This document shows positions 1-27,546 of a stretch of DNA of 35,940 nt, in pieces. How positions within the stretch are numbered: the first letter of the stretch is position 1; each line of letters opens with the position of its first letter. This DNA comes from Candidatus Zixiibacteriota bacterium (GTDB lineage: Bacteria; Zixibacteria; MSB-5A5; GN15; FEB-12): NCBI GenBank assembly GCA_016926795.1, contig JAFGNW010000256.1, positions 1 to 35,940 on the forward strand, given 5' to 3'. The notes under the pieces were generated by a model. It was given only the letters and a program-made list of their open reading frames with translations. It was not told where the DNA came from and did no database searches. The position numbers and the translations under genes are program-made.

Positions 1-54
1 CATCCGGGAGCCGACCTGTACACCGAAATAACCCTGTTCAAGGACGTCTGGTGA
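1..54 (+). CDS. C-terminal tail of an upstream pseudopilin-like protein (partial)
   Basis: An open frame enters from the left edge and ends at TGA 52-54, giving 17 residues that finish PGADLYTEITLFKDVW. The third pilin-like protein downstream ends PGSTVKMDIIFPADLW: same length after PG, same closing D-[LV]-W, and the same alternation of hydrophobic residues. I infer that this is the end of another member of the same tandem family. Its stop overlaps the GTG start of the next gene (GTGA), the junction type also used by the following two genes. Only the tail is visible, so the identification rests on a short alignment. Confidence 0.6.
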   Translation, partial: HPGADLYTEITLFKDVW

Positions 55-1220
55 AAAGAATGAAAAACCCTTTCCGCAACCGAGACGGTTTCAGCCTGAT
101 TGAACTGACGGTAATCATAGTCATTATTGGAATCCTGGTAGCTGTGGCGATGAAATCGATGACGACCGTAACCGAAGATGTCCGGCGTGTCAAAACCGAA
201 CAGGAGATGGAACAATTGGCACGGGCGATTGTCGGCGACCCGGATATCACAACCGCCGGAGCCCGTTCTGATTTCGGATATGTCGGCGATATCGGCGCTT
301 TTCCGCCCAATCTGACGGCTCTGGTAACCAATCCCGGTCTGGGAACCTGGGATGGACCTTATTTGCCGACCGGATTCGTCCAGGACAGTGCCGGTTACCG
401 TATCGACGAATGGGGACAATCTTACGGTTACGGCGGCGGGATTACCATTACTTCGAACGGCGGCGGCACTTCAATTACCAAAAAAATCGCCGATGCCGCC
501 TCGGATTACCTTTTGAATACCTTTCAAGCCGTTATCCGCGACGCCTCCGATAACCCGCCCGGGTTGATTTATATTGATTCGGTTACAGTCAGGATAACCA
601 TTCCCGATGGCGCCGGGTCAAATTTGACTAAAAATTATACTCCCGATTCCGCCGGTAATTTCACTCTGGACTCTCTGCCGGTCGGGCAGCATCCCCTTAG
701 AATAATCTATACTCCCCAAGTCGATACTCTGCTGCGGTATATCACGGTCCTCCCCCGCCAAAAAAGCCAGCCGGTGCCGACTTATTATTTCGCTGTCGCT
801 TATTTCTCGTCCGACACTACCGGTCCTGCCGACAGCCTGCTGATCAAGGTAACCGGCTCCGACTCCATATATGCCGGGTTCTGCAACAATATTTCCTTCT
901 GGATTGAGAACAACACCGGCGGCGATATTACTATAGCCTCTTTCCGATTGACCTGGACCAACCCGACCGCCTATTACCGTTATGTAATCTGGGATGGCGT
1001 CACGGTGGTAAACGAAAACAGCCCTAAAGTCGGCTCGGGCGAACTGGCGGTCTTTTCCCCACCGCGCACGGTCAGCGACGGCGAGAGTTTGAAAATACAG
1101 ATTGAGGAATTCCGAACTCAGCCTACCGGCGGTTCGCGCGTCAATATGCAAAATACGGTCTTCATAGTGGATTTATCCGACGGCTCCACTCTCGAGGTTT
1201 CCGTGGGGAGTTGCCCGTGA
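51..1220 (+). CDS. Modular pseudopilin (prepilin-type N-terminus, GspG-like core, C-terminal beta domains)
   Basis: The protein has 389 aa. The GTG start at 51 overlaps the previous stop and has AAGGA at 40-44, six bases upstream; the ATG at 60 is a less likely alternative. Residues 13-20 (GFSLIELT) form a class III prepilin peptidase site with Glu at mature position +5, followed by a hydrophobic helix. Residues of about 50-140 resemble the type II secretion pseudopilin GspG core: DFGYVGDIGAFPPNLTALV, then WDGPY and DEWGQ. A segment near 175-235 resembles carboxypeptidase-regulatory-like beta domains (PDSAGNFTLDSLPVG). The last 110 or so residues form a domain shared with the next gene (YVIWDGV, SDGESLKI, ending SCP). 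It is likely a minor pilin or pseudopilin displayed at the envelope, processed by PilD. The partner secretion machinery is not in view. Family assignment is good; the role of the added domains is unknown. Confidence 0.85.
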   Translation: MKRMKNPFRNRDGFSLIELTVIIVIIGILVAVAMKSMTTVTEDVRRVKTEQEMEQLARAIVGDPDITTAGARSDFGYVGDIGAFPPNLTALVTNPGLGTWDGPYLPTGFVQDSAGYRIDEWGQSYGYGGGITITSNGGGTSITKKIADAASDYLLNTFQAVIRDASDNPPGLIYIDSVTVRITIPDGAGSNLTKNYTPDSAGNFTLDSLPVGQHPLRIIYTPQVDTLLRYITVLPRQKSQPVPTYYFAVAYFSSDTTGPADSLLIKVTGSDSIYAGFCNNISFWIENNTGGDITIASFRLTWTNPTAYYRYVIWDGVTVVNENSPKVGSGELAVFSPPRTVSDGESLKIQIEEFRTQPTGGSRVNMQNTVFIVDLSDGSTLEVSVGSCP

Positions 1221-2386
1221 TAAGAGTTCACGACAATTCCGGTTTTACCCTTGTCGAGGTCGTCATGGTGATTATAATCGCCGGTATCCTGGTCACTATA
1301 GCTTTTCAGGCGGGGACTAACGTTTACGACACCGCCCGGTTCGAAGAGACCAGGCAGGAGCTCGACCTGCTGGCGTGTGCCGTTACGGGCAATCCGGACC
1401 TGAACAACAACGGGGTGCGGACGGATTTCGGTTATGTGGGTGATATCGGCGCCCTGCCGCCCGACCTCGATGCCCTGATGCAGAACCCCGGTGGTTACAC
1501 TACCTGGAAAGGTCCTTATTTTCAGAATCGTTTTTCACAGGTAACCGATGATTATAAGACCGACGCCTGGGGTAAGGCATACGAATATAACGGCCTGACG
1601 ATAACGAGCAAAGGGAAGGTGACCGGCGGCAGTGGTTGCGGCGGACCGACCACTACCGGCGATATCGTCAGGCGAATCTGCAGCGCCACCGGTGAGTTGC
1701 TGGTCAACCGGGTCAGCGGGACGGTCTTTGACCGCTCCGGTACTCTACCCGGTGATGACTACCGTGATTCCGTCAGAATCGTGTTGACCGTACCCGACGG
1801 CTCCGGCGGGTTTGCCGCCCGCGTTACGGGCGTCACCTCCGGGGGATATTTCACTTTTGACTCGATTCCCATCGGCAATCATAATCTGGATATAATCTAT
1901 TTGCCCGACAATGACACCCTCAGCCGCTTCGTTTCGGTAACCCCGAAATCGACTTCTTATAACGAATATTATCTGGTCGCCAGCCCCTGGTCGCCCTGCT
2001 CAGGGGGCCTGACCAGGGTCCCGAACTCGGACTCCCTGAAAAATGATTGCCACGGTTTCTTTTTCTGGATACGGAACGATTCCGGAAGCGATATTACAGT
2101 CAGTTCGGTTGTTCTCACCTGGAGCGGAACCACCGCCTATTATCGTTACGTTATCTGGGGCGGTGTTTTTGTCTTTGACCGCAACAATCCCAAAGCCGCC
2201 TCCGGGGAACAGGTCTTTTTCAGCAGTCCGCAAACCATCAGCGACGGCGAGACCGTTAAAATCGAGTTCGATAATTTCCGGACTTTTCCCAATGGCGGCT
2301 CCCAGGTAGATATGGATAATACGGATTTTACGGTGGTGTTTTCCGACGGAACAAATCTTAATGTAAGCACGGAGGATTGCCCTTGA
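1217..2386 (+). CDS. Modular pseudopilin, paralogue 2
   Basis: The protein has 389 aa with the same architecture as its upstream neighbour: prepilin site GFTLVEVV (Glu+5), hydrophobic helix, GspG-like core (DFGYVGDIGALPPDLDALM, then TTWKGPY, TDAWGKAY), a carboxypeptidase-regulatory-like beta segment (FTFDSIPIGNH), and the C-terminal domain with YVIWGGV, SDGETVKIEF and final EDCP. I place the start at GTG 1217, which overlaps the upstream TGA (GTGA) and has GGGGAG at 1205-1210; a TTG at 1211 in the same frame would sit directly against that ribosome binding site. Cysteines are more numerous than in paralogue 1 (for example in GSGCGGP), so a disulfide is possible. Function as a pseudopilin or minor pilin is inferred from the family. 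Confidence 0.85.
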   Translation: MIRVHDNSGFTLVEVVMVIIIAGILVTIAFQAGTNVYDTARFEETRQELDLLACAVTGNPDLNNNGVRTDFGYVGDIGALPPDLDALMQNPGGYTTWKGPYFQNRFSQVTDDYKTDAWGKAYEYNGLTITSKGKVTGGSGCGGPTTTGDIVRRICSATGELLVNRVSGTVFDRSGTLPGDDYRDSVRIVLTVPDGSGGFAARVTGVTSGGYFTFDSIPIGNHNLDIIYLPDNDTLSRFVSVTPKSTSYNEYYLVASPWSPCSGGLTRVPNSDSLKNDCHGFFFWIRNDSGSDITVSSVVLTWSGTTAYYRYVIWGGVFVFDRNNPKAASGEQVFFSSPQTISDGETVKIEFDNFRTFPNGGSQVDMDNTDFTVVFSDGTNLNVSTEDCP

Positions 2387-3117
2387 TAAACCTATATTCC
2401 AAACGGGGCTTCACCCTGGTTGAGTTGGTGATAGTCATCGTCATAATCGGTATTATCGCCGCTATCGCCACACACCAGATGTCCGGTTCAATTGAAACCG
2501 CCCGGGTGGAACAGACCAAGAAGGAAATGGACCAGCTGGCCCGGGCAATCGTCGGCGATACGGAGTTATATTCCCAACATGCCCGGGTGGATTTCGGTTA
2601 CGTGGGCGATGTCGGCGCGCTGCCGCCCAACCTCGACGCCCTGGTGGCCAATCCCAGCGGTTACACCACCTGGAACGGTCCCTATATGACGTGCGGTTTT
2701 AACGAGGATGATTTCAAAAAAGACGCCTGGAACGTCCCCTATGTTTTGCTCGACACCTTAATACGCTCCACCGGCTCGGGTACCGATATCGACAAGGTTT
2801 TCTCAGCCGGCACCGACGTCCTTTTCAGCAATCGGCTGGAAGGTTACATTGCCGATGCCAACCGCACTATGCCGGGTATTGTTTATCGTGATTCCATCAT
2901 CGCCCGCCTTTTTTTCCCCGACGGTTCCGGCAGCACTACAGCCATATCGACCCACCCAGGTCTCAAGGGTAATTTTTCCTTCAGCGGTATCCCGATCGGT
3001 AATCATCAACTACAGGTCATTTACCTGCCTGACAGCGACACCATGACCTACCCGGTCAGCGTCACCCCCGGCAGCACGGTGAAAATGGACATCATCTTCC
3101 CGGCCGACTTGTGGTAA
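2383..3117 (+). CDS. Modular pseudopilin, paralogue 3 (short form)
   Basis: The protein has 244 aa. The start is TTG 2383, overlapping the previous TGA (TTGA), with GGAGG at 2371-2375; TTG 2377 is in frame but too close to that site. It has prepilin site GFTLVELV, a hydrophobic helix, the same GspG-like core (DFGYVGDVGALPPNLDALV, TTWNGPY, KDAWNVPY) and the carboxypeptidase-regulatory-like segment (NFSFSGIPIGNHQLQV). It stops right after that segment at PADLW and lacks the roughly 110-residue C-terminal domain of paralogues 1 and 2. The natural-looking ending, also seen in the fragment at the left edge, suggests a genuine short form rather than a truncation. It is the last gene of the array; a minus-strand gene converges on it. 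Confidence 0.85.
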   Translation: MINLYSKRGFTLVELVIVIVIIGIIAAIATHQMSGSIETARVEQTKKEMDQLARAIVGDTELYSQHARVDFGYVGDVGALPPNLDALVANPSGYTTWNGPYMTCGFNEDDFKKDAWNVPYVLLDTLIRSTGSGTDIDKVFSAGTDVLFSNRLEGYIADANRTMPGIVYRDSIIARLFFPDGSGSTTAISTHPGLKGNFSFSGIPIGNHQLQVIYLPDSDTMTYPVSVTPGSTVKMDIIFPADLW

Positions 3118-3174
3118 AGCCGCAGAATTAACGACCTGTCCTTAAATAAGGGATTCAATATTCAAGGAATAAAA

Positions 3175-4320
3175 TTATTCTTCGGTAATAACCAGTTTTA
3201 TGCCGCGTTTTTTAAGCTGGGGAATGAATAAAGAGGATTTAACCGCGACCTCCTGAGGTTTAACACCACGCTCGGTAATCTGTCCCGAAGCCGCCATCCA
3301 GGCTATAATAGCCGCCGGAAAGGCCGTGGTACGCATCATGGCGGTCAGGCCGGTGCGGGTGTCCTGACGGTCGACGATTTCATAAACCAACTTCTTCTTT
3401 GAGCTGTCTTTCTCCCCCTCGAACGTCAGCCTTACCAGTACCATGTCGAGGTCATCTTCATAGCTGAGATTTTTATCCAGTACAGCCTTCAGCACATCGC
3501 GCGGTTCAATACTGTGTCCCCCTATATCCAGCGGTTGTCGGGAAGCCAGGCCGATCTCCAGCATCGGTTTGAACAGACGACAATGACCGGGGTAGCGAAT
3601 GGTTTTATAATCGAGAAAATCGACCTTGTCCAGAAACGTATCGGGCAGAGTCGAGGTACCGCCCGAAGTATAAAACGCTTCGAATTCGCCGATACCGTCG
3701 AATTCCAGACTTTCCACGGCCGTCATGGGATTGACGATTTTCTTTTTGCCCTCTTCGAGAATCACGCAGGGTTCCCAGTATTCGTTAATAAGGCCCTCGG
3801 CGGAAAACACCATCTTGTAATTCAAAGGGGGTCGGGGCGATTGCGGCAGACCGCCGACCCGGATTTTCAACGAATGCAACCGGTCAAACCGGTTGTAACC
3901 GTCGGCAGCCAGCACCGACACCATTCCCGGCGCCAGGCCGCAATCGGGAACAGCGATAATTCCGGCCGCCTCGGCGTCGGCGTTCATTTCCAGCTGGGTT
4001 TGCACGATACTGTTATTGCCTCCCAGGTCCATAAAATGGCACCCGGCTTTTATCGCCGCCCGGGTCAGCCCGGGATTGTATTTATAAGTCACGCAGGACA
4101 GGGCCGCGTCATAATCCTTCAAAATCTCAACAGCCCGGTCTTTATCACCGGCATCGAACCGTCCCGTAACCGCTTTACCCTCGCCGTATTTCTCACCTAT
4201 GCCACGGGCCAGTTCGGCGTCGATATCAAAAACTCCAACCGCCTCAACACCCTCGGCCCGGGCCAGGTCGTACACCGCCGCCCGGCCCATCAATCCAGCC
4301 CCGATAACAGCAATTCTCAT
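3175..4320 (-). CDS. Saccharopine dehydrogenase-family oxidoreductase (lysine 6-dehydrogenase-like)
   Basis: The protein has 381 aa and is likely an NAD(P)-dependent amino-acid dehydrogenase. ATG 4320 is chosen because AAGGAG lies seven bases upstream and the Rossmann motif GAGLMG (residues 7-12) starts at once; the frame stays open upstream but encodes nonsense. The central region LGGNNSIVQTQLEMNADA with CGLAPGM and the substrate-domain stretch GGLPQSPRPPLNYK are hallmarks of the saccharopine dehydrogenase/Lys9 superfamily, and the single-domain length suits the lysine 6-dehydrogenase branch. The reaction would be oxidative deamination of lysine or cleavage of saccharopine; the exact substrate cannot be decided here. 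It stands alone, convergent with the pilin array and divergent from the small DHp gene, so context does not assign a pathway. Confidence 0.8.
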   Translation of the reverse strand: MRIAVIGAGLMGRAAVYDLARAEGVEAVGVFDIDAELARGIGEKYGEGKAVTGRFDAGDKDRAVEILKDYDAALSCVTYKYNPGLTRAAIKAGCHFMDLGGNNSIVQTQLEMNADAEAAGIIAVPDCGLAPGMVSVLAADGYNRFDRLHSLKIRVGGLPQSPRPPLNYKMVFSAEGLINEYWEPCVILEEGKKKIVNPMTAVESLEFDGIGEFEAFYTSGGTSTLPDTFLDKVDFLDYKTIRYPGHCRLFKPMLEIGLASRQPLDIGGHSIEPRDVLKAVLDKNLSYEDDLDMVLVRLTFEGEKDSSKKKLVYEIVDRQDTRTGLTAMMRTTAFPAAIIAWMAASGQITERGVKPQEVAVKSSLFIPQLKKRGIKLVITEE

Positions 4321-4483
4321 TATCCGTCTCCTTATTTTCAGGGGAATATATATGAAATTTTCATTTAGAAAAGTATTTTTATCGACCGAACGCGTTGAAA
4401 ATAAGAAAAAAACCGTTTCCGCCGATAATATGATAAATACACTGTTATACTGATGGGGAAAAAGCCGGGAGAAGATTATCACC

Positions 4484-4789
4484 ATGAGCGACATCAATAA
4501 AATAAACCAGAAAGACACCGAGGCAGAAGAAATTTTGAACCTTCTGAAGCCTTTTATAATACACTGCCTGAAATTGAATCACGACCTCAATAATCCCCTG
4601 GCCGGGATAGTCGGTTACACGGAATTTTTGCTCGACGAGGAAGAATCGCTGACCGATACTCAGCGCGAATATCTCGAGCAGATAAAGACCTGCGCGGAAC
4701 GGATTAAAAACGAAATCACTGAATTGTGCAATGAAAAAATAGATCTCTCACAGCGGATAAATCTCAAACAGCTTTTCCCGGAAAAATAA
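4484..4789 (+). CDS. Small stand-alone histidine-kinase DHp-like protein
   Basis: The protein has 101 aa. Residues 31-50 (LNHDLNNPLAGIVGYTEFLL) match the H-box of HisKA/DHp domains, with His33 as the candidate phospho-acceptor, followed by a second helix (about residues 58-83) completing the two-helix hairpin. No receiver, sensor, membrane segment or ATP-binding CA domain (no N, G1 or G2 boxes) follows; the protein ends in KQLFPEK. It could act as a phosphotransfer protein (compare Spo0B and ChpT, which are also DHp-based) or as a dimerisation decoy of a kinase. GGGAGAAG lies about 9 bases before the ATG, and a -10-like TATACT is at 4446-4451. No response regulator is adjacent. The DHp similarity is clear; the role is inferred. 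Confidence 0.72.
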   Translation: MSDINKINQKDTEAEEILNLLKPFIIHCLKLNHDLNNPLAGIVGYTEFLLDEEESLTDTQREYLEQIKTCAERIKNEITELCNEKIDLSQRINLKQLFPEK

Positions 4790-4801: not shown

Positions 4802-6976
4802 TCATATCAAGTTGTTGATTTTTCTGAGGATCCATTCCACCGACAGCATGGCGATAAAAATCAGCAGCAGCCAGAATTTATTCCATACCACAATTTCTTT
4901 TTGCACCGCTTCGACCACGGGATTCAGGTCGATATTATTGACGGCGTCGTTGAATTGGTCGAAAGTATAGAAGCTGCCGCCGGTCAGGCTCGCCAGAGCC
5001 ATCAGACCGGTCCGGTCACCGCTCTGGTCGAATTCCTCCAGCGAAAAAGTTTCCACGACGATTTGACCCTGCTCGTTTTTAAGGACCTGTCCCCCTTTCT
5101 CGAGGAAGGCGGAAAAAGTATACCGGCCCGGCGGCACCGGGTCAAATTCAGCCCTCAGCCGTCCCGGGGTTTGTTCGATAAAATCTTTTTCGTAAACTTC
5201 ACCGTCGCCGCTTGAAAGCCGTACCGTTCCGGTTACCTCTGTCAGCGGGCGAAAACCCTGGTCGTATGCCATACCGTCGAAACGCACCGCTTCGCCCCGG
5301 CTGAACACTTCCTTATCGGGGGTCACCCGAACCGGCTCAAAATCATCCTGTACCGTCAGCCAGCTGATTGTCCCTTCGAGAAACTTTTCATAGAGACTGT
5401 TGTCCTCACCAAACCCGAGATTGACAAACCCCCAACTCCAGAACGGCAGGGCGGCGGCGGCCAGAAGCTTGCCCGGTCCGAACCGACGGTAACCCAGGAC
5501 GGGGATTTTTTCCCATTCCAAGCGCCCGCCCGAGGCATAAGCGAGAACCACTCCTTCGGGGTCAACAACATCACAGCGAACCAACGTTTTAAAAGGCGGC
5601 CGGGTCGCCCAGAGTTCCCGGATAGCATTGCGGTCGTCAGCCAGGCGTATTACCGGATGAAAGAGGTTATTTTCGGACGGCTCACCGTGGAAATCCAGAT
5701 ACTCGATACGGTTCGGCTGAGATTGAGAGAACGGCAGGAATTCATTGAAGCGGTTGCCCGACCCCCGCCCTGCGAACTGCGGTCCCATCAAAAGCCACAA
5801 CGCCCCCCCCTTTTCATTCAAATAAGACTTCAGGATATCCAGGCGCGGTTCAAAAGCGACCGGGTCGGGATCGTGCAATATCACCAGGTCGTAGCGGTTG
5901 AGTTCAGTCTGACGGCTCGGGAAACGACCACCCAGGTTGCCCGCCTTCTCCCCGGTGACGATTAAATCAACCTCATATTTAACCGATTGTGTCAGGAATC
6001 GTCTTAAAAAACCAACCTCGTAATCCGGCCGGTCAGTCACCAGCAACACCAGCAGTCGGTTTTTGAGAACCTTGACCGAGACGGTGCGAAGGTTATTGCC
6101 TGCCGATTCCTCCCCTTCCAGCGGTGATATTTTTATCTGCATCAGTTTCTGACCGGGCTGGTCGGGAGTATATTTAAGAATTACATCCCCGAAACCACCC
6201 TCCTGGGAAATTGCAAATCGGCTTTCGGTCAAAACCCGGGTCGAATCCAGAAGCTGCACTGTCAGGTTTTTACCTGCAGCGTCATGCCAGTTCAGTTTGA
6301 CTTTTACTTCTGTCGGTCGGCCTACAAAAACCACGGGATTGTAATTAACCTCGTCCAGACCGACATCGAAATTTCCGACATCCAGCGCGAGGTCAACACA
6401 GACCAGGGGTACTTCCAGTCCCTGTACGGCTTCCCGGGGTCGGCGCCCGGTATTGGACTTGCCGTCGGAGAACAGCAGCCAGTAATCTGAAGGCTCGGTC
6501 AGGTCGAGTTTTTTCAATTCGTAAAGAGCGTCACCCAGAGCGGTTTTATCCCGGTCGACGGATTTCTCTTCCTCGGCCAGGTTGCTGCCGAAATAAAACG
6601 TCTTCAACTCCGTCCGGATTTTAAGACGCCGGTAATTCTCATCGGTCAGAAGTGAATCCAGCCGCTCCCGGCGCGATTTATCCCGCTCGAAACGGTCCAT
6701 GCTGGAGGAGTCGTCCACCAGCACGGTTATTTTCTTACGGCGCTCAAACTCGCGGTTGTAGCTTAACACCGGCTCGAATAATGCCGCGCAAAGGGCCAGA
6801 ACGGCTATAACCCGAACAATGATAAAAATGATTCTTAATAAAGGTGAGACCGGCGGATTGGTGCAGCGATACAACCAGAAAGACAGCGCCAGAAGCAGCG
6901 CCAGGGTAAGCCAGACCAAAACCGGGTTTCCGGTTAGAAAATTAACGTTGATGTCTTTCAAGCCAAACATGAGCAC
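4802..6976 (-). CDS. Large membrane protein with VWA domain and GATase1-like region
   Basis: The protein has 724 aa. It has two N-terminal TM helices (about residues 19-37 and 48-70), a VWA domain starting at ITVLVDDSSSMD (MIDAS D88-x-S90-x-S92), a periplasmic beta-rich region, a glutamine-amidotransferase-like fold segment (LLVLLVTDRPDYEVGFLRRF ... YDLVILHDPDP), a beta-sandwich region near 560-660, and a final TM helix (FWLLLIFIAMLSVEWIL). This layout resembles BatA-like or large VWA membrane proteins of the FCB and PVC groups, which are thought to act in envelope assembly, but no MoxR or Bat neighbours are present. The GTG start at 6976 is uncertain; ATG 6970 is equally possible and neither has a good ribosome binding site. 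It lies 82 bp downstream of the prenyl synthase gene and may be co-transcribed with it. Confidence 0.75.
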   Translation of the reverse strand: MLMFGLKDINVNFLTGNPVLVWLTLALLLALSFWLYRCTNPPVSPLLRIIFIIVRVIAVLALCAALFEPVLSYNREFERRKKITVLVDDSSSMDRFERDKSRRERLDSLLTDENYRRLKIRTELKTFYFGSNLAEEEKSVDRDKTALGDALYELKKLDLTEPSDYWLLFSDGKSNTGRRPREAVQGLEVPLVCVDLALDVGNFDVGLDEVNYNPVVFVGRPTEVKVKLNWHDAAGKNLTVQLLDSTRVLTESRFAISQEGGFGDVILKYTPDQPGQKLMQIKISPLEGEESAGNNLRTVSVKVLKNRLLVLLVTDRPDYEVGFLRRFLTQSVKYEVDLIVTGEKAGNLGGRFPSRQTELNRYDLVILHDPDPVAFEPRLDILKSYLNEKGGALWLLMGPQFAGRGSGNRFNEFLPFSQSQPNRIEYLDFHGEPSENNLFHPVIRLADDRNAIRELWATRPPFKTLVRCDVVDPEGVVLAYASGGRLEWEKIPVLGYRRFGPGKLLAAAALPFWSWGFVNLGFGEDNSLYEKFLEGTISWLTVQDDFEPVRVTPDKEVFSRGEAVRFDGMAYDQGFRPLTEVTGTVRLSSGDGEVYEKDFIEQTPGRLRAEFDPVPPGRYTFSAFLEKGGQVLKNEQGQIVVETFSLEEFDQSGDRTGLMALASLTGGSFYTFDQFNDAVNNIDLNPVVEAVQKEIVVWNKFWLLLIFIAMLSVEWILRKINNLI

Positions 6977-19302: not shown

Positions 19303-22221
19303 ATGAAGACCCTCACATTGTTTGTTACATTTATACTATTTTTTTCTTTAAATTCAATAATTCTGGCGGATAGTTCGCCCGATATCCCCTCTCTTAAAAA
19401 ATTTACGACTCCTCCGATGACATTTACTGCCAACCAGGGGCAGTGGAACCAGCAAACTCTCTTCCGATGTGATGCCGGTAGCGCGCTCCTCTGGTTTACT
19501 CACGATGGGGTCTATTACCATTTTAACCGGCGCCTCGGTAACAGCGAGGAATACACCGCCCGCCTGCCTCACCGGATGAGCGAGCCGGCTGACAATCCGC
19601 CTGTTTTCGAACGTCTACTGATAAAATCAAATTTCATAGCTGCCAATCCCGAGCCGGTTATAAAAGGCAATGCTCTTCTCAGCCATCGCAGCAATTTTAT
19701 ACTGGGCAATGACCCGGCTCGATGGCGAACCAACGTCCCTTCTTATGAATCTCTCACATACGAAGATATCTACCCCGGAATCAACCTTGTTTATTATAGT
19801 AAAAACGGTCATATGGAGTATGACTTCGTGGTATTTCCCGGAGCGGACCCGGCGGTAATAAAAATTCGATACGACGGTGTGGAGAGGATTTCGGTCAACG
19901 AGACCGGAGAACTGCAGCTGACCACAGCCTGGGGTACGGTTACCGAACAAAAACCGGTCTTTTATCAGGACATAAACGGCGAGCGTCAAACGGTCACCGG
20001 ACGCTACTTGATTCTCGGCGAAACCACCTTCGGCTTTGAACCGGACCGTAATTATGACCCCACCCTGCCGCTGATTATCGACCCGGTCCTCGTCTTCAGT
20101 ACTTATATGGGAGGAAGTGTTGAAGATTGGGGACTTGATATTGCGGTCGATGATAATAGTAATGTATATGTGGTCGGGATGACTTACTCTTCCGACTTCC
20201 CGACCGAAAATCCCCTTATTGACACCATTACCGGCTCCAGCGACGCTTTTATGACCAAGCTCAAAGCGACCGGGGATGAGTTTATTTACAGCACCTATCT
20301 TGGCGGCGATGGATTTGATTTCGGCCTCGCTCTCACCATTGACGGCGATGGAAACATCTATCTTACCGGGGTAACTTATGCCGCCGACTTTCCGACCGAG
20401 AGCCCCCTGCAGGGAACCTATGGCGGAAACGGCGACGCTTTTGTCGTTAAGCTTAACAACACCGGGGAATCGCTTATTTTCAGCACCTACCTGGGCGGAG
20501 GCAGTTATGACAGCGGCGAGGATATAATTCTTGACGCCAACGGCAATATCTATGTTACCGGTGGAACCGATTCGGAATCTTTCCCGACCCAGGACCCGCT
20601 CTTTAACAATCAATTACTGCGTGATGCTTTTATATCTAAAATAACCCCTGATGGCTCCTCATTCGTATTCAGCACCTACCTGGGGGGTGAGAGAGGCGAT
20701 TTCGGCAAAGCTCTCTGTCTCGACGCCGACACCAATATTATTATTCTGGGTTCCACCAATTCGGATAATTTCCCCAGTTTCCGGGCCTATCAGGACGAGC
20801 GAGCGGGTTTTTATGATGCTTTTATTACCCGAATCAATGCGAACGCAACGAACCTGATCTACAGCACCTACCTCGGCGGCGGCGATGATGACTGGCCGGT
20901 GGATATGGAAATAGACGCCAACGGTTTTGTGTACCTTACCGGTTATACTTACTCGCTTGATTTCCCTAAATACTTACCATTCCAGAACGCCAAAGACGAC
21001 TCCGCGGATGCCTTTGTCACCAAGCTGGATTCATCCGGCGTCAGTCTTGTTTTCAGCACCTTCTTCGGCGGCAGCAAAAACGACTACAGTCAGGGGATTA
21101 CAGTCGATAACGACGGAAAGATTTATATATCCGGGAGCACCGGTTCCAGTGATTTCCCATTAAAAAGGGAACTTCAGACTTACCAGGCCAATAATGATGC
21201 CTTCGTAACGAAATTCAATGATGACGCCAGTCTGCTGTTTTACAGCACCTGCCTCGGCGGCACCGGCAGCGACGCTGCCAATTGTATTGATATTGACAAC
21301 ACCGGCAATGTTTACCTGACGGGGTCGACCTCTTCCATCGATTTCCCCACTGTAACCCCCTACTGCGACACCCTGACCGGCCTCAAGGATGTATTTGTAA
21401 CCAAGATTTTCGATGACTGCATCGATAACGACCTCGATGATATCTGCGACAACGAAGATAACTGTCCCGAGGCATACAATCCCAATCAGTACGATACCGA
21501 CGGTGACGATGACGGCGACGTCTGTGATTTGTGCACCGACACCGACGACGACGGTTACGGCAACCCCGGTTTTGCCGCCAACACCTGTGACACCGATAAC
21601 TGCCCGGATATTTACAATCCCGATCAGGAAAACGCCGACGGCGACGGCTTCGGCGATTCCTGCGACGTCTGCATCAACGACCCCCTGAACGATATCGACG
21701 GTGACGGTCTTTGCGGTGATGTCGATATCTGTCCCCTTGCTTATGACCCTTTACAGGAAAATACCGACGGCGACAATTACGGGGATTCTTGTGATAATTG
21801 TCCGGATATTTTCAACAACAGCCAGGAAGACGCCGACGACGACGGTATCGGTGATTCCTGCGATATCTGCATCAACGATGAATATAACGACATCGACGAG
21901 GATGGCGTCTGCGGAGATATCGATAACTGCCCTTTCTTCTACAATCCCGACCAGCTTGACGCCGACAGCAACGATATTGGTGACGCCTGCGAGAGTTGTT
22001 GTGTTGGCACCACCGGCAACACCAACTGCTCGGCGCTCGAAGAGCCGGATATCTCCGACATCACCCGGTTGATCGACTACCTGTACTTGAGCCATGTACC
22101 GCTGTGTTGCCCGGAGGAAGCCGATGTCAACATCAGCGGCGGCGAGCCGGATATCTCCGACATCACCCGACTGATAGACTATCTGTACATCACTCACGGT
22201 CCCCTGGACAACTGTCCATAG
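19303..22221 (+). CDS. Secreted SBBP beta-propeller protein with TSP3 repeats and doubled dockerin-like C-terminus
   Basis: The protein has 972 aa. A signal peptide (about residues 1-22, ending IILA) is followed by the N-terminal domain that accompanies SBBP propellers (FTANQGQW ... LIIDPVLVFSTYMGG). Seven SBBP repeats of about 60 residues follow, each with [LF][VIF][FY]STYLGG, a D-x-x-G-N-[IV]Y core and DFPT. Residues of about 705-905 are thrombospondin type 3-like calcium-binding repeats (DNCPEAYNPNQYDTDGD and similar). The end has two copies of PDISDITRLIDYLY separated by a short Cys-containing linker, each resembling a dockerin-like EF-hand segment. It is probably an extracellular or surface-attached adhesion or scaffold protein stabilised by Ca2+. 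GGGAAGC precedes the ATG. Domain identification is confident; the ligand is unknown. Confidence 0.87.
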   Translation: MKTLTLFVTFILFFSLNSIILADSSPDIPSLKKFTTPPMTFTANQGQWNQQTLFRCDAGSALLWFTHDGVYYHFNRRLGNSEEYTARLPHRMSEPADNPPVFERLLIKSNFIAANPEPVIKGNALLSHRSNFILGNDPARWRTNVPSYESLTYEDIYPGINLVYYSKNGHMEYDFVVFPGADPAVIKIRYDGVERISVNETGELQLTTAWGTVTEQKPVFYQDINGERQTVTGRYLILGETTFGFEPDRNYDPTLPLIIDPVLVFSTYMGGSVEDWGLDIAVDDNSNVYVVGMTYSSDFPTENPLIDTITGSSDAFMTKLKATGDEFIYSTYLGGDGFDFGLALTIDGDGNIYLTGVTYAADFPTESPLQGTYGGNGDAFVVKLNNTGESLIFSTYLGGGSYDSGEDIILDANGNIYVTGGTDSESFPTQDPLFNNQLLRDAFISKITPDGSSFVFSTYLGGERGDFGKALCLDADTNIIILGSTNSDNFPSFRAYQDERAGFYDAFITRINANATNLIYSTYLGGGDDDWPVDMEIDANGFVYLTGYTYSLDFPKYLPFQNAKDDSADAFVTKLDSSGVSLVFSTFFGGSKNDYSQGITVDNDGKIYISGSTGSSDFPLKRELQTYQANNDAFVTKFNDDASLLFYSTCLGGTGSDAANCIDIDNTGNVYLTGSTSSIDFPTVTPYCDTLTGLKDVFVTKIFDDCIDNDLDDICDNEDNCPEAYNPNQYDTDGDDDGDVCDLCTDTDDDGYGNPGFAANTCDTDNCPDIYNPDQENADGDGFGDSCDVCINDPLNDIDGDGLCGDVDICPLAYDPLQENTDGDNYGDSCDNCPDIFNNSQEDADDDGIGDSCDICINDEYNDIDEDGVCGDIDNCPFFYNPDQLDADSNDIGDACESCCVGTTGNTNCSALEEPDISDITRLIDYLYLSHVPLCCPEEADVNISGGEPDISDITRLIDYLYITHGPLDNCP

Positions 22222-24558: not shown

Positions 24559-27294
24559 TTATTTTAATAAAATCATCTTACGTTCCTGCGAATAACTCTC
24601 CCCGGTCAGACGATACAGGTAAACGCCGCTGGCAACCCGCCGGTTGCTTTTGTCCGTACCGTTCCAGACTAACCGGTGTTCTCCGGCCGGATAGGCACCG
24701 CGGGCCAGGGTCGTAACCTCGCGGCCCAACAGGTTATAAACAGTCAGATTGATATCCATCGTCTTCGGAAGGCTGAAAATTATCACGGTGGACGGATTGA
24801 ACGGGTTGGGATAATTTTGAGCCAGGGAAAAAGTCTCCGGCACCAGCGGTTCGTCGTCGTCAACATCGGTTGCCAGGTACAGGTAATTACCGGCCTGAAC
24901 GTTCAGCCCGTTATCGCGGGGATCGCTCCAGGTCAGCCAGGCCCGCCCCCGAACAGCGTCAACCGCAGGGGACTGCATGAATTCCGGAACCGCCGCCGAA
25001 ACCGGTAAATTGGCTCCCTGAGGCGCCAAGCTGTTGTCGAAAAGCTGATAATAAACAATTTTTTTACCGTCCCGGTTGTCGAGCCAGGCAGTTGTAACAT
25101 AATCGTTCTCGTCCACCGCCACCGCCGGCTCGAGGGCATCGGTCTCTTCAATATCGGTGACCGCCTGCGGGGTGCGAAGGACCACTCCGTCGCGGCTTAA
25201 AACCGTAAGATATAATTTGTAATAACCGCTTTCCACACCGTTGAAGAGCAGAAAAATATTCCCCAACCGGGAGATGTCGGCGGCCATATCATAAATATCA
25301 ACGCCCGCCACCGACGACGACCAGCCGAACGACCCGCCGGTGGTTTTATCGCTGTGGAACCACTTCACCTTGACCTGCGGCGGGGTCTGGCCGTAATCGA
25401 GCCAGACGACATAAAAATTTCCAACCTCATCGACCACAACGAGGACACCACCATTGTCAATATCGACACCGGAGCTACTGACCGCAAACTCGGCTCCGTC
25501 AGGGAGCCCGACTGCCGTCAGCCAGCGACCGTAAATCTGTGCGGTTCCGGTGCGTTTATCGGCCCAAACTACCAGACCCCGGCCGGTGCTGTTTACAGCC
25601 GCCGAGGGTCCGCCTTTGACCGCCGGCTGCAGGGTATCTGAGATCATGAATTCGTTACCGGTAAAATTGCCGTAGACGTCGCAAAAACGCCCGTATATAC
25701 GCTGCCCGGAAAGACCGTTCACTGCCCGGCCGTCAACCCAGACTGTCAAGGCGCCGTCAGAACTGACCGCCGCCGCGGGTTCGGACTGCAGATTACAGCC
25801 AATATCCTGATTTACCCTGCGGTTGACACCTACCTTTTCCCGGTTGTGGGTAACCGCCTGAAGATATATATCGCCGATATCGTTGCGTCGATCGGTAAAG
25901 ACTACCAGGTTGTACCAGTTCGTCAGGGTAACGATATCGGGTTCGAGGGAAGGGGCGCCGGCGGTGTCATCGTTAAGTTTGATTTCATCGGCAGCCAGAG
26001 CATTCCAGCTGGTGTCGAAGGGCATAAAATGAATATCGGCATCGCTGCCGGTAAATTCGGTCCAGGCGACACCGGGTCGGTCGGCGCGGGCGAAAGCCGC
26101 CGCCGGACTCCAGCGCTGTTCCAGAAGCGACCGGTTAAGCTGTCGCGGCGTACCGATCGGATTTAAAGCGTTATCGAAACGCAATCCCATAATTTTACTC
26201 TGGATACCGAACGAAGCCCAGGTTGCCAGCAGTTTACCGTCGGGTCCCACTGCCAGGGCCAGGTCCCAGTTCTCCACCTGGATATCCGGTATAGAAATCG
26301 GGCGGTTGTCACCCACCGGTCCGGTTAAGGAGCTGTATTGCTGAAGGTAAATTTCGTGAGAATCGCGCAAATCAATCCAACCGAGAACAAAGCCATATGA
26401 CGGTGAGTAAACAATCCGGGGCAGATACTGGTCGCTGCCGTCGGCCGGCGGCGGGATAAGTGTAAATTCGTTGCCGACCGCCGTCCCGTTACCGTCAAAA
26501 AGACGGGCATAAATATCGGCCCGGCCGTTGCGATAATCTTCCCAACCCACCAGAAAACCACCGCCCGGTTGAACCGCTACCGAGGGAACCCATTTCATGG
26601 CTGTTCCCCCGCCGGAGTTGACCGGCGACGGTCCCTTGAGGGTATTGCCGGAGTTATCATATATCCGCATATATATATTCGAGCCCGTGGCCGAATAATT
26701 TTCCCAGACCGCCACTGTACGGCCGTTGGGATAAATATCAAAATCGAACGGCCCGCCAAACGCTGCCAGACCGGTATCGTTTACCAGAAAAGGCGGCAGA
26801 CTGACCGACAGGTCGGAATTGTAACGAGAGCCGAAAATAAAACCGCTGGTACGGTCCCGGTAAAAAAGGTAAATCCTTCCCAGCGTGTCCGTTTTGAGAC
26901 GGGCATCAACAAAATCGGCGCCGATTTCCGAACCGGCGAGCAATCGGTTATCGCCGATAAACCCGCCTGTTAAAGCAAGTTCCTGAATGAAAATCTTGTC
27001 GGCTCCCAATCGTTCGTCCGACCAGGCCACCAGCCAGCGCTCGCCGGCAAGCGAACAGACTCCGACCCGGTCCTGGTTGAAACGCGCCGGTGTCGTTGTC
27101 TCCGAAATGACCGTCTCATCGATACCGGCCGCCAATCCGAATGGGGTATATTTATGAATAACCGTCTGTTCCCGAACAGTCGGGTCAATCTCCGGCAACC
27201 GGGAGGCATGGACCGCGGCGCGGTCAATCCCCCGGACGGGCGGAGTCAAACCCATCAACATCAGAAATAAAACGGAAAATCTAATAAAATTCAT
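24559..27294 (-). CDS. Secreted propeller-repeat protein with type IX-like C-terminal sorting domain
   Basis: The protein has 911 aa from ATG 27294, where a signal peptide begins (MNFIRFSVLFLMLMGLTPPV); the frame stays open 55 codons upstream but without signal-like sequence. The body holds about 13 repeats with the theme [VA]-W-x-D-x-R-x(3-6)-[DK]-I-Y (for example GWEDYRNGRADIYARLFDG, VWADKRTGTAQIYGRWL), probably beta-propeller blades. The last 85 residues are a T9SS type A-like sorting domain: NYPNPFNPST, then YNLLGREV, GEHRLVWNG, ASGVYLYRL and the basic end RKMILLK. It should be exported through the Sec system and then, if a Por system exists, to the cell surface. Ligand unknown. Confidence 0.85.
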   Translation of the reverse strand: MNFIRFSVLFLMLMGLTPPVRGIDRAAVHASRLPEIDPTVREQTVIHKYTPFGLAAGIDETVISETTTPARFNQDRVGVCSLAGERWLVAWSDERLGADKIFIQELALTGGFIGDNRLLAGSEIGADFVDARLKTDTLGRIYLFYRDRTSGFIFGSRYNSDLSVSLPPFLVNDTGLAAFGGPFDFDIYPNGRTVAVWENYSATGSNIYMRIYDNSGNTLKGPSPVNSGGGTAMKWVPSVAVQPGGGFLVGWEDYRNGRADIYARLFDGNGTAVGNEFTLIPPPADGSDQYLPRIVYSPSYGFVLGWIDLRDSHEIYLQQYSSLTGPVGDNRPISIPDIQVENWDLALAVGPDGKLLATWASFGIQSKIMGLRFDNALNPIGTPRQLNRSLLEQRWSPAAAFARADRPGVAWTEFTGSDADIHFMPFDTSWNALAADEIKLNDDTAGAPSLEPDIVTLTNWYNLVVFTDRRNDIGDIYLQAVTHNREKVGVNRRVNQDIGCNLQSEPAAAVSSDGALTVWVDGRAVNGLSGQRIYGRFCDVYGNFTGNEFMISDTLQPAVKGGPSAAVNSTGRGLVVWADKRTGTAQIYGRWLTAVGLPDGAEFAVSSSGVDIDNGGVLVVVDEVGNFYVVWLDYGQTPPQVKVKWFHSDKTTGGSFGWSSSVAGVDIYDMAADISRLGNIFLLFNGVESGYYKLYLTVLSRDGVVLRTPQAVTDIEETDALEPAVAVDENDYVTTAWLDNRDGKKIVYYQLFDNSLAPQGANLPVSAAVPEFMQSPAVDAVRGRAWLTWSDPRDNGLNVQAGNYLYLATDVDDDEPLVPETFSLAQNYPNPFNPSTVIIFSLPKTMDINLTVYNLLGREVTTLARGAYPAGEHRLVWNGTDKSNRRVASGVYLYRLTGESYSQERKMILLK

Positions 27295-27546
27295 TACTTG
27301 CTCAAACCTCAAGATTTTGTTTGGATATGAAAATGCAAATAAGGTGCCCTCATGAAAAAAATAAGGGGATAACCTGAAAGATAAAAGGTGTTTTTTATTG
27401 CCATGCAAACCGCTGCCGTACAAGGCGATAGGCCCTCTCCCGGACAACCTCCCCGGCATCGTCCAATTATGCCTTCAATTGTCTACATTAATCGCTGCAA
27501 GTCTTTTCATAATTTACACAAAAGGACAGAAATAATCAGACATTAT

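Follow-up and report, generated by a model that had tools for sequence, protein, structure and literature searches.

How type IV superfamily filaments are initiated and what occupies their tips is an open question. The Verru_Chthon cassette proteins C and D (TIGR02599, TIGR02596) represent an NCBI-named cassette of prepilin-type proteins. In the type II secretion system (T2SS), a conserved set of four differentiated prepilins, GspH-I-J-K (XcpU-V-W-X; PMC6211770), accompanies a machine of GspE, GspF, GspG and a secretin, and the tip complex recognises substrates (PMC6211770, PMC10191384). In S. sanguinis, the place of HIJK is taken by a smaller modular set, PilA-PilB-PilC (PMC8179133, PMC9934059), where PilC combines a pilin with an Ig-like and a ConA-lectin domain. 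The major pilins of this species keep Pro22, whereas the modular minor pilins PilB and PilC lack it (PMC6497953). In HIJK as in PilABC, a subunit that lacks Glu5 takes part in capping the tip (PMC10191384, PMC9934059).

The cassette of prepilin genes described here resembles each of these systems in part. Like PilABC, it encodes modular minor pilins without Pro22 while the major pilins keep it, and the layout of PilC recurs at position 3 of the cassette in one relative (L134). In contrast to the three unrelated subunits of PilABC, however, the cassette draws its four subunits from a single GspG-like family of paralogues, retains an acidic residue 5 throughout and goes with a diderm T2SS-like machine that has a secretin; furthermore, the tails in our sequence are not lectins. 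Like GspH-I-J-K, it is a conserved set of four differentiated prepilins associated with a GspE/F/G/secretin machine, but the two are related in sequence at the signal helix only, the cassette cores being derived from GspG, and the cassette has extra modules instead of a K-like subunit without Glu5. The core is homologous to that of the major pseudopilin GspG (TIGR01710, PF08334), and its profile alignment with the GspG-like pilin of the machine itself shows 42% identity, whereas the cassette proteins fall below the equivalog cut-off, lack Pro22 and carry added beta domains. The match to Verru_Chthon proteins C and D spans about the first 47 residues and is far below the cut-off, so that the likeness is one of layout. 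The best reading by analogy is that the cassette works most like the PilABC and HIJK tip complexes, belongs to neither by sequence, and probably arose separately from a GspG-type pilin.

A prepilin array at the contig edge

The window, by which we mean the whole analysed stretch of 35,940 nucleotides, corresponds to contig C285 in the metagenome assembly of an uncultured member of the Zixibacteria, which comprises 3.29 Mb in 285 contigs and is 88.5% complete. At its left edge (1-3117, + strand), three complete prepilin genes are arranged head-to-tail after the final 17 codons of a fourth. The latter, the 3' end of cassette gene 1 (1..54, +, reading frame 1), encodes the C-terminal 17 amino acids HPGADLYTEITLFKDVW and a stop codon, and the remainder lies past the contig edge. 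The full position-1 gene is present in a genome of the same genus (G001), where the protein ends in ...SYLQMNLFKDVW. Since the two C-termini match (..LQMNLFKDVW in G001 and ..TEITLFKDVW in the window), the fourth gene is real and was cut by the end of the contig. Cassette genes 2 (51..1220, +, with a start at 51 or 60) and 3 (1217..2386, +) both encode a prepilin signal, a GspG-like core, a CnaB-like domain and a type A beta tail. Gene 4 (2383..3117, +) encodes the signal, the core and the CnaB-like domain, is tail-less and ends in PADLW.

The genes overlap by four bases, GTGA at 51-54, GTGA at 1217-1220 and TTGA at 2383-2386, and a purine-rich site is located 6-7 nt upstream of every junction (AAGGA at 40-44, GGGAG before 1217 and GGAGG before 2383). 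The first of these sites resembles a ribosome-binding site and forms, together with the stop/start overlap, the junction of genes 1 and 2 (40..54, +). The sequence thus confirms the tandem array with NTGA overlaps and preceding purine-rich sites that was reported in the preliminary description. The additional claim that the proteins are expressed in equal amounts is not implied by the four-base overlaps. Among 211 junctions, the overlap is 1 in 38 cases and 4 in 29, and because the junction type varies between relatives, the NTGA overlap holds little information: it is ordinary operon packing, one junction type among several. We also noted that the array is cut at contig ends both in the window (1-54) and in the genome of the same genus (L142, L143), perhaps because the similar cores confuse the assembly.

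GspG-like cores with grafted beta domains

All three complete proteins score above the cut-off for N_methyl in Pfam (5.8e-6 for gene 2 and 2.1e-6 for gene 3), have Glu5 and contain the motif DFGYVGD-IGA-PP-L-AL, and their pairwise identities are 41-48%. With a prepilin signal (Gly-1, a hydrophobic stretch and Glu5) and a prepilin peptidase in the genome, they have the features of the class III prepilin superfamily. The AlphaFold2 model of the gene 3 protein (mean pLDDT 90.4) consists of a long helix, a GspG-like core and two beta-sandwiches (residues 164-252 and 265-389). The class III signal and helix alpha-1 (residues 1-57; 1217..1387, +) were delimited from the modelled helix at 12-57 and from residue counts, and here Glu5 is kept and Pro22 is absent. 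The globular core (residues 62-158; 1400..1690, +) is defined by a T2SSG match at 82-125, the model and a profile match. The T2SSG match is below the cut-off for gene 3 (0.0055), and the PF08334 cut-off is passed by gene 4 only (21.5 bits against 21), for which TIGR01710 gives 1.1e-11. The best score against the GspG equivalog model is 45 bits, short of the 88.85 of TIGR01710. N_methyl, T2SSG/TIGR01710, AlphaFold2 and profile comparison nevertheless agree with the earlier view of a shared prepilin signal, GspG-like core and added beta segment. A failure of the cores to group with T2SG/T4 pilins had been named as grounds for abandoning that view; in profile searches they match T2SSG, TIGR01710 and, by hhalign, the GspG-like pilins of the machine.

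Residue 22 separates the cassette from the pilins of the machine. None of 138 cassette-family cores has the helix-breaking Pro22 of major pilins, compared with 16/17 GspG-like and 26/26 PilA-like pilins of the machine, a few of the PilA-like rows being from near-identical genomes. In the cassette family, residue 22 is usually Arg, Lys or Gln. Proteins at position 1 have a Tyr start in all 25 cases. Residue 5 is acidic throughout, with Glu5 in all sampled proteins at positions 1, 2 and 4 and a single Asp among those at position 3, and no capping subunit without Glu5 was seen among the sampled cassette positions. Models of GspH and GspJ match the cassette proteins in the region of the signal helix only, below the cut-off, and no GspJ (T2SSJ) was found in 41 genomes of relatives. 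T2SSK matches in 14 of these 41 genomes were rejected as probable helix-hairpin-helix proteins: they cover just positions 1-49 of 63, in frames of 500-776 amino acids, and the model also finds matches in control genomes, B. subtilis among them. A PDB sequence search yielded pilin N-terminal helices only.

It is well supported that every copy carries a CnaB-like module and that some have a second beta module. In gene 3, the first of these is a CnaB/transthyretin-like beta-sandwich (residues 164-252; 1706..1972, +), recognised from the AlphaFold2 strands, from Foldseek matches to CnaB-type pilins and DUF3823 proteins, and from CarboxypepD_reg (Pfam) in 16/44 homologues. Whole-model TM-scores are low owing to the multi-domain layout, and the name of the fold is based on local alignment and Pfam. 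The second is the type A tail (residues 265-389; 2009..2383, +), also a beta-sandwich in the model, with a weak Arch_flagellin match at 281-383. We did not adopt a likeness to archaeal flagellins, as 5/44 members match (best 7.8e-9) and the window's own score is below the cut-off. The window's tail type A has no known binding fold. A Foldseek comparison with a viral library gave mostly generic beta-sandwich matches.

Two types of tails were observed. Type A is mostly located at position 3 and also at positions 1 and 2, type B mostly at position 2, and position 4 is tail-less in 27/27 proteins. In the window, genes 2 and 3 have type A tails and the tail of gene 2 is nearest to that of its neighbour (52%), which suggests that tails may have been exchanged within the genome. 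Positions 1 to 3 may add interchangeable beta tails. In some relatives the tails end in ConA-like lectin domains (Laminin_G_3, 1e-26, 2e-20 and 4e-19), and the model of tail B (pLDDT 78.6) resembles carbohydrate-binding (CBM) jelly rolls. Taken with the AlphaFold2 model and the Foldseek matches, the Laminin_G_3 domains of relatives identify these proteins as modular pilins, in which a non-pilin domain is grafted onto a pilin module.

Four lineages and their machine

A search of 61 genomes, from the window's own through those of its genus and family to its order, found the cassette family in every one. Exactly four genes are found in 29 of 34 complete arrays located apart from machine genes; the other five include one with 5, one with 6 and three that read as 2 or 3 genes, at least two of which are explained by masked sequence. 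The preliminary description had counted at least four copies. The fourth gene stands, whereas the number is in practice exactly four. In a tree of 155 cores, every position has its own clade: position 2 falls on one branch, and the support is a starred 97 for positions 1 and 4 and 92 for position 3. Window genes 2, 3 and 4 are placed in the clades of positions 2, 3 and 4, respectively.

The separate clades indicate that the genes are neither recent duplicates nor an assortment of equivalent cores. Judged from sequence relationships, it is well supported that the four positions are old, specialised orthologous lineages in a fixed order, in place of the bank of near-identical cores with different tails envisaged earlier; position 4 is tail-less in every case. 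Array counts and tree together describe a set of four differentiated subunits, a feature shared with GspH/I/J/K. The cassette was also said to go beyond an ordinary GspG-K set, and this contrast is weaker than claimed, since the cassette likewise looks like a differentiated set of four. Some relatives (L071, L076; genome G036) have a second, distant cassette-like cluster in the same genome, and G036 has 16 family matches. In the literature collection that we searched, we found no description of pseudopilins in Zixibacteria or Calditrichaeota, and similar sets throughout the order seem to be undescribed so far.

The genome encodes two filament machines, two secretins (on C38 and C23) and one prepilin peptidase (Peptidase_A24, E 7.1e-21). 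The operon on C38 contains genes for GspE with an MshEN domain, GspF, a PilA-like and a GspG-like pilin, PilM/GspL-like, PilN, PilO-like and GspC/B-like proteins and a GspD-type secretin. The second machine is a type IV pilus. Its PilB/PilT/PilC genes lie on C147, C23 carries a PilM-Q-like locus with a FimT-like pilin, and PilV/PilW-like minor pilins are encoded on C175. Only nine N_methyl proteins were identified, three in the array and two in the C38 operon, and the others include minor pilins of this pilus, one FimT-like and two PilV/PilW-like. A cassette core matches the GspG of its own machine with 43% identity in a six-frame protein comparison, and position-4 cores match C38-type GspG-like pilins in hhalign (probability 100, E 1.9e-41, 42% identity). 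That the cassette cores are paralogues of the GspG-like pilin of the C38 machine and descend from it is well supported.

In this genome the cassette and the C38 operon are not linked, nor is the cassette beside the machine in the family to which the window belongs. Elsewhere in the class, most families have one to three cassette-type genes within the machine operon, directly after GspG; for example, a single gene is located between GspG and PilM in L130, L132, L133 and G061, and three are inside the operon in G038. Outside the window's family, a cassette-type gene adjoins GspG in 26/28 genomes, and a reading of the operon adds G069. In a sample of the class, cassette-type genes occur in 37/59 genomes. 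A GspG match accompanies them in 36 of these 37, and the remaining 22 genomes lack both at E 1e-15. As the cassette sits inside the GspG operon in relatives, its assignment to the C38-type T2SS-like machine, which is based on gene order in those genomes, is well supported; in the window's own family, it has relocated outside the machine operon. The earlier proposal of a pilus or secretion machine therefore holds, and the GspD-, GspE- and GspF-type genes that were sought are located on C38, linked through the gene order of relatives.

In G069 (L146 at about 6435-6828; L079), the GspG-like gene of the machine operon is seemingly frame-broken into two pieces, beside two open cassette-type genes. 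In several C38-type operons (L130, L132, L133, L144), the gene for the GspG-like pilin has as its neighbour one for a PilA-like pilin of 138-166 amino acids, whose final residues are NNW or NQF. The C38-type machine accordingly has two pilins with Pro22, and either one could be the shaft.

A candidate tip complex and its alternatives

We favor, with some confidence, the hypothesis that the four products of the cassette form a set of modular minor pseudopilins which prime and cap a T2SS-like filament and present binding modules. The single prepilin peptidase would process all four prepilins, which would then form a heteromeric complex in the inner membrane. This complex would initiate the filament and finally occupy its tip, from which the grafted modules would extend to bind a ligand, perhaps a glycan or a surface in the relatives with lectin or CBM-like tails, or possibly secretion substrates. 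The tail-less position-4 subunit, which is the most conserved in form, may be the joint to a GspG/PilA-like shaft. Some observations speak against a tip set. With an acidic residue 5 at every position, no Glu5-less cap is visible, and many class genomes have just one cassette-type gene, which means that the machine does not require a complex of four. Moreover, the cassette is not beside the machine in the window's family, so that the link there rests on relatives.

We also considered the possibility that the array is an assembly duplication or the decay of one pseudopilin, as might be suspected from its position at a contig edge and from the split of the same-genus array over two contigs. The identities among the copies are too low for such an origin, all frames are open and orthologues of each copy, in different clades, occur in many genomes; tree and identity values rule out chance as well as an assembly duplication, the latter having been named as a possible refutation, and we give this explanation as a whole practically no weight. 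It is also very unlikely that the separate type IV pilus is the machine to which the cassette belongs. The lack of linkage to the C38 operon in this genome would allow it, but that pilus already owns FimT-, PilV- and PilW-like minor pilins, the cassette-type genes of relatives sit in the operon of the other machine, and all but one of the cassette-bearing sample genomes also carry a C38-type GspG.

The remaining alternatives concern function. The modules could form a substrate-recognising tip of a secretion system, in which the cassette replaces the true GspH-K and picks up secreted enzymes. This is a possibility that we take seriously while considering it unlikely: the operon has GspE, GspF, a GspC/B-like protein and a secretin, GspJ is absent from the 41 genomes searched, and the known T2SS tip complex recognises substrates (PMC6211770, PMC10191384). 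However, the operon further encodes a PilA-like pilin, proteins of the PilM/PilN/PilO type and an MshEN domain, so that the filament may serve in secretion, as a surface pilus or as both, and the lectin and CBM-like tails of relatives fit surface binding better. Still less probable, in our opinion, is a bank of independent adhesins on the tips or sides of filaments, each binding a different glycan or surface and forming no single complex. Tails swapped between positions (A on 1, 2 and 3, B mostly on 2), the ConA-like lectin domains of some relatives, genomes that manage with a single gene and arrays of five or six genes all speak for such a bank. Yet the number four and the gene order are conserved across families, whereas an open-ended bank would vary in number; each core belongs to its own clade, whereas a bank would show mixed cores; and position 4 never has a tail.

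If the cassette is indeed a set of tip subunits, its history may have begun with the tandem duplication of a GspG-type pseudopilin, present at first as one gene in the operon, and continued with divergence into a full four-subunit tip complex that replaces GspH-K of the T2SS-like machine and was relocated as a fixed cassette. We put this scenario forward tentatively, leaning slightly to the sceptical side. If true, the tip complex would have originated twice by convergence, the second time with binding modules that can be exchanged and lacking a Glu5-less cap. This candidate phylum has intermediates with one, two, three and four tip-type genes from one pilin family, so that the origin of a tip complex can be read from genomes. 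Pro22, kept in shaft-type and lost in tip-type pilins, serves as a simple diagnostic. Metagenomes are almost the only source of knowledge about this group, and the cassette also points to its likely surface-binding proteins.

Other secreted proteins were observed in the same genome. Two that are otherwise unrelated, encoded at 19303-22221 (+) in the window and at 2376-4760 (-) in L008, have the same paired, dockerin-like C-terminal domain, EPDISDITRLIDYLYxSHxPLCCPEEAD, which is possibly a sorting or attachment domain. A large secreted protein at 24559-27459 (-) in the window has a C-terminal FlgD-like Ig domain of a kind that is a C-terminal sorting signal in other phyla.
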